From assembly GCA_021160245.1 (NCBI GenBank), contig JAGHCW010000196.1:1-9622 (forward strand): a stretch of DNA of 9,622 nucleotides. Reading direction: 5' to 3'. Shown here piece by piece: positions 2,305 through 5,161 of this stretch (position 1 is its first letter; every line of letters begins with the position of its first letter). The notes beneath the pieces are model-generated. The model worked only from the letters and a program-made list of their open reading frames with translations. It did no database searches and was not told the DNA's origin. This DNA is from a bacterium (GTDB lineage Bacteria > B130-G9). A program made the position numbers and the translations under genes.

Positions 2305-4320
2305 ATGCCCGATTTCAATCTTGTATCCGATTTCAAACCAACAGGCGATCAGCCCGAGGCCATCGATGCGCTCGTCTCGCGCGTTCGGGCCGGCGTCAGG
2401 GACAACGTGCTGCTTGGCGTAACGGGTTCGGGCAAGACTTTCACAATCGCTAACCTTATCGAACGAGTCAATCTGCCAACGCTGGTTCTGTCGCACAACA
2501 AGACCCTCGCCGCGCAGCTCTATACCGAGTTCAAGGAGTTTTTTCCTGAAAACGCGGTCGAGTATTTCGTCAGCTACTATGATTATTACCAACCAGAGGC
2601 TTATCTCCCCACAACGGACACTTACATAAAAAAAGACGCCGACATCAACGAGGAGATCAATCGCCTAAGATACTCCACAACCAGGTCGCTTTTCGAGCGG
2701 CGGGATGTAGTAATCGTCGCAAGCGTGTCCTGCATCTACGGACTCGGCTCTCCAGAAGCGTATCTTGAGATGATGCTTCTCTTAGAACGCGGAAAACTAA
2801 TTGACCGCGATAAGATGCTTGAGCAGCTCGTCAACATGCAATACAAGCGTAACAACACGACACTCGTCCGAGGCGCATTTAGGGTGCGAGGCGATGTTAT
2901 TGAGATTCTGCCTGTCTATGAATCAAGAGCTATCCGAATCGAGCTCTTCGGAGACGAGATTGAGCGCATAACCTTCTTCGATCCCCTTACAGGCCACTTC
3001 ATCAAAACAGCAGATCGCCTCGCCTTGTATCCTGGAAGCCACTACGCCATTCAACCTAAGCGTGTGGACAGGGCGATAGAATCGATCATTGCGGAGCTCG
3101 AGACGCGGCTGGATTTCTATGAGCGCGAGGGCAAATTGCTTGAGGCGGAGCGGCTTCGAAGCAGAACCATGTATGATATTGAGATGATCCGCGAGATTGG
3201 CTTCTGCTCTGGCATAGAGAACTACTCCAGACATTTCACCGACCGCAAGCCCGGCGAGCCGCCTCCCACTCTGCTGGATTACCTGCCAGACGACTTCCTG
3301 CTCGTAATCGACGAATCCCATGCAACCGCGCCTCAGCTGCGAGCGATGTTCTGCGGCGATAGATCTCGCAAAGAGACGCTAGTTACGCATGGTTTTCGCC
3401 TTCCATCGGCCTTTGATAACCGCCCGTTATTCTTCGATGAGTTCAATGAGCGACGAGGCGCTACGATATATGTCTCTGCGACGCCGGCTGCCTACGAACT
3501 TGATCTCGTAGATGGCGATATCGTAGAGCAAGTCGTTCGCCCAACGGGACTGTGCGATCCGGAGGTTGATATTCAACCAGCCGCCGGCCAGGTAGATCAT
3601 CTTCTCGGCGAGTTGCGCGAGCGCGTCGCAAAAAAACAACGCGTGCTTGTTACAGCGCTTACGAAGCGGATGGCGGAGGATTTGACCGATTACTACTGCG
3701 AGCTTGGCATTAAGGCGAGGTATTTGCATTCCGAGGTCAAAACGCTTGATCGAATTGAGATAATCCGCGAGCTCAGGCAAGGCGAGTTCGATGTGCTTAT
3801 CGGGATCAACTTGCTGCGCGAGGGCCTCGACCTGCCGGAAGTATCACTCGTTGCCATCCTAGACGCGGATAAAGAGGGATTCCTACGGTCAACAACCTCG
3901 CTAATCCAGACGATGGGCCGCGCGGCTCGGAACGTCGATGGCAAGGTGATTCTTTACGCGGACAAGTTCACCAACAGCATCCGTTCCGCCGTCAACGAGA
4001 CTAACCGCCGCCGGGAAAAGCAGCTGGCCTATAATCAGGAGCACAACATCACTCCCGAAACGATTCAGAAGAAGATTGCTGAGCCGATAAGCGCCGTATT
4101 TGAGGCGGATTACTACACGATTCCGATCTTCAGACCCGGTGAGGAGCTTCTTGAGCCCAAGAGCGACGCCGACCTAACAAAGTTCGTGAAGGAGCTGGAG
4201 CAGGAGATGGTTCAGGCCGCCGAGAAGCTTGAGTTCGAGCACGCGGCAAAACTCCGCGACAAACTCTTCGCCCTGAAAAAGCGGCATTCGGCCGCGTTGC
4301 AGGCGCTGAAGGTTCTATGA
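2305..4320 (+). CDS. uvrB: UvrABC excinuclease subunit B
   Basis: UvrB is the damage-verifying helicase-like subunit of nucleotide excision repair. It is loaded on DNA by UvrA, then recruits UvrC for dual incision. The 671 residues match the usual length. Visible motifs are Walker A GVTGSGKT (38-45), the damage-probing beta-hairpin region [12 protein letters not shown] (91-102), [11 protein letters not shown] (141-151), Walker B-like VIDESH (334-339), helicase motif [10 protein letters not shown] (535-542), and a C-terminal UVR domain (about 632-667) that binds UvrC. The start at 2305 gives the canonical [11 protein letters not shown]-terminus, with GGAAG nine nt upstream. The reading frame stays open further upstream, but that part overlaps the VOC gene and lacks UvrB homology. 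The last 38 codons are duplicated at 5041-5157. The gene itself appears intact. A HEPN-MNT module begins 14 nt after its stop. Confidence 0.98.
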
Positions 4321-4324
4321 TATG
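4202..4324 (+). repeat. Direct repeat, copy A: uvrB 3' end
   Basis: These 123 bp recur at 5039-5161 with a single mismatch (A at 4263, G at 5100, a synonymous AAA/AAG lysine change). The repeat covers the last 38 uvrB codons, which encode the UVR domain, plus the stop and 4 bp beyond it. The distance between equivalent bases is 837 bp. Copy A is the functional end of uvrB. The flanks diverge at once on both sides, so the edges are sharp. Confidence 0.95.
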
Positions 4325-4334
4325 ATGCTTGATT

Positions 4335-4715
4335 ATGACTATTAATGTAGGGAAACTTGTAGAGTTTTGGCGCGGAAATGCTTAAGAGGATATTCAAATT
4401 GCGCGAGAGAACTTCGCGAATAGGAGATACTCATTCGCGATGTTTTTGGCGCATCTTGCTTTGGAGAAGGCGCTGAAAGCTCTTGTCATAAATGAGACAA
4501 AGGCGATCCCACCCAGAATCCACAATCTTACCTCGCTTGCTGAGAAGGCGAAATTATCCCTTGACCAAGAGACACTGACGTTTCTATCCGCTATGGACCA
4601 TTACCAGATGGCAGGCAGATATCCTGAACCGCGCAGTCCTATGATCAGCCGTCTCGATGCAGAATGGGACCTCAAAAGGGCAGAGGAGGTTGTCAAGTGC
4701 TTGACGAGTCAGTAA
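4335..4715 (+). pseudogene. HEPN-domain gene of module 1, interrupted by in-frame TAA
   Basis: Read from the ATG at 4335, this frame aligns without gaps over all 126 codons to the intact HEPN gene at 5170-5550 (about 53 identical by hand count). Codon 17 is TAA (4383-4385) where the paralogue has CTA (Leu), in NA-stop-EDIQIAR against DALEDMDLAR. Homology continues on both sides, so this is a nonsense mutation rather than a real upstream end. Downstream, SFAMFLAHLALEKALKAL, PRIHNL and FLSAMDHYQMAGRYP are conserved HEPN features. A shortened 91-residue product could start at the ATG at 4440, but the nearest Shine-Dalgarno-like AGGAG (4422-4426) is 13 nt away and helix 1 would be missing. HEPN proteins are all-helical and usually act with an MNT nucleotidyltransferase, often as toxin or RNase. 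The gene overlaps its MNT partner by 19 bp. A sequencing error at this base is the main alternative. Confidence 0.8.
4683..4689 (+). promoter_or_regulatory. Shine-Dalgarno site fixing the GTG start of MNT 1
   Basis: GAGGAGG lies 7 nt before GTG at 4697 and inside the end of the HEPN 1 frame. It selects the GTG over an upstream in-frame ATG at 4664. The homologous MNT 2 gene has AGAGGA 7 nt before its own start at the matching position. Confidence 0.75.
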
Positions 4716-5020
4716 TCGAGGTCGTGAGGCGCTATCTCAGCCTGCTGAAGGAACGCGGAGTCCCTGCTTCTTTTGCCGTGCTTTTCGGCTCTTTTGCAAG
4801 GGGAGACCAACGTCCTGAGAGCGATGTTGACATTCTCGTTATCTCGAAGGAATACGATGAGGATTGGCAGCGTTGGAATAGGAAGCTCTGGGAATTAAAA
4901 TATCTTGTGGATGCGCGCATTGAGCCGACACCGGTTGGCGAGCTCGAGTTTGATACCGATGACGTCTCCATCAGAATTGAGATGGCGAGAAGAGAGGGCA
5001 TTCGGATTAACCTTTCATAG
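4697..5020 (+). CDS. Minimal nucleotidyltransferase (MNT) of module 1
   Basis: The 107-residue protein is a stand-alone pol-beta-superfamily nucleotidyltransferase. GSFARG at 31-36 is followed by ESDVDILV with D43 and D45 (the GSx10DxD signature that binds metal and NTP), and D72 in VDARIEP is the likely third carboxylate. In studied HEPN-MNT pairs the MNT partner neutralises the HEPN protein, in some cases by transferring AMP to it. GTG is taken as the start because of the Shine-Dalgarno site at 4683-4689, and because length and N-terminus then align with MNT 2 (about 60 of 107 identical, no gaps). The gene overlaps the end of HEPN 1 by 19 bp. It looks fully functional although its HEPN partner is broken. 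It ends 18 bp before the duplicated uvrB tail. Confidence 0.88.
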   Translation: MLDESVIEVVRRYLSLLKERGVPASFAVLFGSFARGDQRPESDVDILVISKEYDEDWQRWNRKLWELKYLVDARIEPTPVGELEFDTDDVSIRIEMARREGIRINLS

Positions 5021-5038
5021 CTAGATTCACGCACGCAG

Positions 5039-5161
5039 AGGAGATGGTTCAGGCCGCCGAGAAGCTTGAGTTCGAGCACGCGGCAAAACTCCGCGACAAG
5101 CTCTTCGCCCTGAAAAAGCGGCATTCGGCCGCGTTGCAGGCGCTGAAGGTTCTATGATATG
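5039..5161 (+). repeat. Direct repeat, copy B: displaced uvrB 3' end
   Basis: Second copy of the repeat at 4202-4324, with 122 of 123 bases identical. It starts 18 bp after MNT 1 and ends 8 bp before the HEPN 2 start. No terminal inverted repeats, target-site duplication or recombinase gene is visible around it. Recombination between copies A and B would remove an 837-bp unit holding HEPN 1-MNT 1 and leave uvrB intact. Confidence 0.95.
5041..5157 (+). pseudogene. uvrB 3' fragment encoding only the UVR domain
   Basis: The last 38 uvrB codons and the stop are retained here without the rest of the gene. The reading frame is undamaged. An in-frame ATG at 5044, directly preceded by GAGGAG, could start a 37-residue UVR-domain peptide ([10 protein letters not shown] onward), but a Shine-Dalgarno with zero spacing is poor. 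The most likely status is an untranslated remnant of a recombination event, not a gene. The UVR motif is the helical hairpin by which UvrB contacts UvrC, so a translated fragment could in principle compete with UvrB. Confidence 0.7.

Follow-up and report, generated by a model that had tools for sequence, protein, structure and literature searches.

How does a gene for nucleotide-excision repair come to have its 3' end written twice, with one HEPN-MNT module between the two copies and a second, divergent module directly behind them? This arrangement lies between uvrB and uvrC in the window analysed here, a stretch of 9,622 nt that is one whole contig of a draft assembly of 244 contigs, the evidence base being that one contig of one assembled genome.

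The duplicated uvrB tail and the modules around it

A repeat search of the 9,622-nt contig returned two direct repeats, copies A and B (Table 1), with a length of 126 nt, 98% identity and a spacing of 837 nt. They share exact runs of 61, 61 and 2 nt; the single mismatch within the 123-nt span (4202-4324 and 5039-5161), A4263 versus G5100, is synonymous (Lys AAA/AAG), and the second lies beyond that span (4325/5162). Outside these copies, exact repeats in the window reach 13 nt at most, and shuffled sequence gives 12-14 nt; a chance origin of the repeat is therefore excluded. A sequence-only reading of this DNA had described 123-bp direct repeats with one mismatch, the first comprising, in frame, the last 38 uvrB codons, the stop and 4 nt, and had held that anything between the copies leaves uvrB whole. 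These statements were borne out, the last by the in silico removal of 4202-5038, after which an identical 672-aa UvrB remains and HEPN2 starts 12 nt past its stop. Copy B is truncated at its 5' side only, by a cut in mid-gene, while its 3' side runs into HEPN2.

Table 1. Features of the uvrB-uvrC region, in window coordinates
Feature	Position	Strand	Remarks
uvrB, intact, 672 aa	2302..4320	+	TIGR00631, well above cut-off; 3' end is copy A
Copy A	4202..4327	+	Last 38 uvrB codons, stop TGA 4318-4320, 7 nt
HEPN1 (PF05168)	4335..4715	+	Pfam; broken by in-frame TAA 4383-4385 (codon 17)
MNT1 (PF01909)	4697..5020	+	Pfam; open, GTG start, GSX10DXD present
Joint, MNT1 stop to copy B	5021..5038	+	Putative illegitimate junction, 18 nt, ends GCAG
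Copy B, 5'-truncated uvrB tail	5039..5164	+	ATG 5044 could yield a 37-aa UVR peptide
HEPN2 (PF05168), intact	5170..5550	+	Pfam
MNT2 (PF01909), intact	5532..5912	+	Pfam; GSX10DXD present
uvrC, intact	5995..7863	+	

The two modules have an identical layout, HEPN followed by MNT with a 19-nt overlap, and HEPN1 and HEPN2 start 14 nt after the uvrB stop and 12 nt after the copy B stop, respectively. Pfam matched HEPN (PF05168) and NTP_transf_2 (PF01909) in both modules above gathering scores, HEPN1 being read from an internal ATG. This confirmed the earlier identification of two HEPN-MNT modules, which had however overlooked the nonsense codon of HEPN1; because this codon is in frame, HEPN1-MNT1 is not an intact pair. 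The internal ATG at 4440 could give a 91-aa piece without the N-terminal part of HEPN1. Judged from its open frame and intact catalytic motif behind the broken HEPN1, MNT1 may be an orphan antitoxin-like gene. The amino-acid identity between modules 1 and 2 is 43-49% for HEPN and 57% for MNT, and their GC3 values are 0.52-0.57 and 0.65-0.67, respectively (uvrB, 0.64). Directly after uvrC lies a HicB-like/HicA pair (7934-8322). The same pair follows uvrC in a relative, G002 (L128 1449-1063), where the hicA match is split over two frames, suggesting a frameshift.

As to the class of the modules, the RX4HXY motif of class I HEPN/MNT (the type VII toxin-antitoxin HepT/MntA; PF01934/PF08780) is absent from HEPN1 and HEPN2, and Pfam assigns both to PF05168, which places them outside class I. 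The combination of a PF05168 HEPN next to a PF01909 MNT with GSX10DXD, present in both modules, is that of class II (PMC7641770); unlike the class as described there, two divergent modules stand here in tandem between uvrB and uvrC, one of them with a broken HEPN. The authors of that study were aware, as of 2020, of no biochemical work on class II (PMC7641770), and we therefore speak of the modules as putative toxin-antitoxin systems only. Other assignments were set aside: NCBIfam matches of the MNTs (MntA, HalB) fell under the curated cut-offs, and PADLOC matches (PDC-S09, PDC-M05A) are most probably due to the nucleotidyltransferase fold that the proteins have in common. Among solved structures, there was no match for HEPN2 and a weak one for MNT1.

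The locus in relatives and the age of its parts

The phylum is represented by four genomes only in the collection searched. In G001, which belongs to another genus, uvrB is followed by a spacer of ~190 nt, a HEPN-MNT module and the contig end, and uvrC sits at the extreme end of a separate contig. In G002, HEPN-MNT stands directly before uvrC, the contig ending 139 nt upstream of HEPN with sequence that is not uvrB; in G003 neither uvrB nor uvrC was seen. The whole string of uvrB, module and uvrC is on one contig in no relative, and the G001 and G002 assemblies hold no second copy of the uvrB tail. Linkage of this module type to uvrB or uvrC extends across genera of the phylum. A tblastn search with these four proteins, which reaches their relatives only, revealed no HEPN-MNT beside uvrB among 80 uvrB loci in other phyla. 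Three contigs of the relatives (C114 and C148 of G001, C213 of G002) break at the uvrB/uvrC HEPN-MNT locus, perhaps because the region is repetitive or varies between strains. The G002 contig with uvrC has a 10-nt tandem repeat (ACATATAGAA) close to one of its ends (L128 218-295).

Since G001 and G002 each have a single HEPN-MNT module that is related to module 2 and adjoins uvrB (G001) or uvrC (G002), module 2 is probably the resident one. Its closest match is the uvrC-linked module of G002 (HEPN 71%, MNT 61%). In a tree of concatenated HEPN and MNT sequences, the four uvrB/C-linked modules formed one clade (100/99), in which module 2 paired with G002 (82/85) and module 1 fell outside module 2, G001 and G002 with moderate support (79/85). 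A sister relationship of modules 1 and 2 was rejected (AU P=0.008, dlnL 15.2), by which a simple recent tandem duplication of the module in situ is ruled out. On this tree, the two modules would have diverged at about the time of the genus split or earlier.

The uvrB tails tell of a different age. Copies A and B differ at 1 of 123 sites, and the tail differs from that of G001 at 19-20 of 93; if the copies had separated at the genus split, with a divergence of ~17%, one difference or fewer would be expected with P~3 × 10−9. At a single site, a weak indication, copy B has AAG as in G001, and copy A has AAA. Because the modules are old by the tree and the tails almost identical, the junction should be young unless the tails have been converted; the tail duplication would then be a recent event that joined modules already strongly diverged. 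The sequence-only reading had proposed either a recent junction or gene-converted tails, and its premise holds in that the modules are much older than the tails, for which gene conversion may be the cause.

Origin of the 837-nt unit

We lean, though not strongly, towards a recent recombination as the source of the 837-nt unit, by which a second, divergent HEPN-MNT module was stacked onto the resident one. The starting locus would have been uvrB-HEPN2-MNT2-uvrC, and the incoming DNA, a uvrB tail followed by HEPN1-MNT1, would have come from an unsampled relative with a near-identical uvrB tail. One end of the event would be a homologous crossover inside the uvrB tail, and because the crossover falls there uvrB would have stayed whole; at the other end, the sequence 18 nt past MNT1 would have been joined without homology into uvrB codon ~634 (about 5038/5039). 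The incoming segment could have been circular, of ~837 nt, and inserted through one crossover, or it could have been linear, with one homologous and one illegitimate end (homology-facilitated illegitimate recombination, HFIR); the two routes predict identical sequence. Copy B would be the left-over tail still leading into HEPN2, and the loss of its 5' side only, with the HEPN2 junction kept, is as a left-over should be.

The 126-nt stretch of 98% identity is able to act as the homologous anchor, a role that we infer, as we do the direction (module 1 incoming), the donor and the recombination route. Candidate microhomology at the joint is at most GCAG with a 2-nt offset, a figure whose scoring needs the donor sequence; the illegitimate joins of HFIR have microhomology of 3-10 bp. 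The mirror version, with module 1 as the resident and the right half of the locus as the newcomer, could be envisaged too; since it is module 2 that has relatives in G001 and G002, we consider this direction less likely. The spacing of 12-14 nt before HEPN, compared with ~190 nt in G001 and at least 139 nt of non-uvrB sequence in G002, is a special state that the recombination model leaves unexplained. The repeats should allow the unit to be lost again by recombination, which would restore the single-module state. A wider proposal, that the uvrB 3' end serves in this phylum as a docking site where HEPN-MNT variants pass between strains, stack through a homologous crossover in the tail and an illegitimate join, and collapse through the tail repeat, forming a recombinase-free, cassette-like array whose anchor, a DNA-repair gene, is never interrupted, is a speculative extension that we hold to be unlikely.

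Searches for a donor gave no closer MNT in 386 genomes. The nearest MNTs outside the phylum share 51-52% identity and lack uvrB in the flanks that were seen. Two MNTs of this identity to MNT1 occur away from uvrB in a genome of another family (G042; L133 and L139); one of them has an in-frame TAG, and no HEPN match lies beside either in the flanks searched.

Among the rivals, the best survivor is an old tandem duplication of tail and module in situ, before the genus split, after which module 1 was deleted through the repeat in the relatives and gene conversion from uvrB homogenised the tails here. The early branching of module 1, before the split of G001, G002 and module 2 (79/85), is what such a history would leave; direct repeats commonly undergo conversion or loss, the boundaries of the homology are those that conversion would demand, and the resulting sequence would be the same as under recombination. 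This account nevertheless requires conversion across the whole repeat as well as loss in the relatives, the assemblies of G001 and G002 being without a second tail copy, and 1 difference in 123 is incompatible with such an age in the absence of conversion. We regard it as rather unlikely.

It is improbable, too, that the arrangement is an assembly artefact, produced by threading through the shared tail either two strain variants or a single-module chromosome together with an 837-nt circle. The assembly is a draft of many contigs, contigs of G001 and G002 likewise stop here, a hint of strain variation or of repeats left unresolved, and with identical runs of 61 nt short k-mers could not settle the path. 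Against this, the junction of MNT1 with tail B (5021-5039) is unique sequence, which graph assemblers should not normally create, and the region is present only once in the assembly.

It seems very unlikely that a mobile element, or the repair of a break, inserted HEPN1-MNT1 (about 4328-5038) and that the 126-nt tail is a gene end brought along or a long target duplication. The insert is indeed compact, beginning 7 nt before the HEPN1 start codon and ending 18 nt after the MNT1 stop. However, the 837-nt unit holds only HEPN1-MNT1 and the uvrB tail: no recombinase-like ORF, tRNA or Rfam family was found, and the repeat search detected no terminal inverted repeats at its ends, so that neither the recombinase gene nor the terminal repeats of a transposon or integrase-borne element are in evidence. 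Usual transposon target duplications are far shorter than 126 nt. Furthermore, no flanking repeats were found in nine regions around other or related HEPN-MNT genes, and module 1 groups with the uvrB/C-linked modules, not with a dispersed family. Plasmids gave no match, and viral contigs gave one weak match of 26 residues and none to the junction. Thus, of the two origins first proposed for the unit, a mobile element carrying a gene end gains nothing from these searches, and unequal recombination between uvrB-linked variants gains support from the single clade, the non-sister modules, the young tails and the one non-homologous join; the lack of a recombinase-like ORF, tRNA, Rfam family or other module-flanking repeat fits the passive route that had been favoured.

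Finally, it is most improbable that copy B has been kept for a function, as a short UVR peptide touching UvrC or UvrB or as a translated leader coupling MNT1 to HEPN2: its ATG opens a 37-aa ORF that matches UVR (PF02151, E 6e-7) and ends 12 nt before HEPN2, and there is no nonsynonymous change, but an AGGAG abuts the ATG with zero spacing, the same ATG is found inside uvrB, youth explains the conservation, and the coding strand of copy B shows no promoter or terminator signal, the search for such signals having yielded nothing convincing. A 37-aa UVR peptide or leader is possible, and nothing requires one.

Comparison with known systems

Taken together, the unit is most likely a recent recombination scar of a known general kind, in an unusual place and with unusual cargo. 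In Vibrio, stacked T6SS effector-immunity modules have been attributed to an HFIR-like process that leaves behind the 3' end of the displaced effector, and copies in the same genome are not sisters (PMC5361080). The present locus shares with these stacks a conserved upstream homologous anchor, a new module directly behind it, an older module displaced downstream, a remnant 3' gene end between the modules and non-sister copies within one genome. In contrast to the Vibrio stacks, the anchor here is uvrB, a housekeeping repair gene, the cargo is HEPN-MNT, no resident gene is visibly lost, and the broken toxin-like gene lies in the anchor-proximal module rather than in the displaced one. Within the limited set of papers searched, we found none that ties such stacking to toxin-antitoxin modules.

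In an experiment of this kind in E. coli, the products analysed were mostly duplications, of 109-950 bp in those sequenced, that arose from a single crossover of circularised DNA (PMC3240628). One homologous end and one non-homologous join are common to those products, to HFIR and, on the reading proposed, to the locus described here, which differs from the experiment in being a natural event known from its end product alone. Canonical HFIR usually deletes recipient DNA of similar size, whereas a duplication is seen here, as in the circular products (PMC3240628); the circularised-DNA route would thus fit the 126-nt duplication better than canonical HFIR. If the recombination reading is right, the locus records the stacking of divergent toxin-antitoxin-like modules at a fixed site by general recombination only, with a housekeeping repair gene as the anchor. 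The locus and its relatives also connect class II HEPN-MNT, in more than one genus of a single phylum, to uvrB and uvrC, genes of nucleotide-excision repair.
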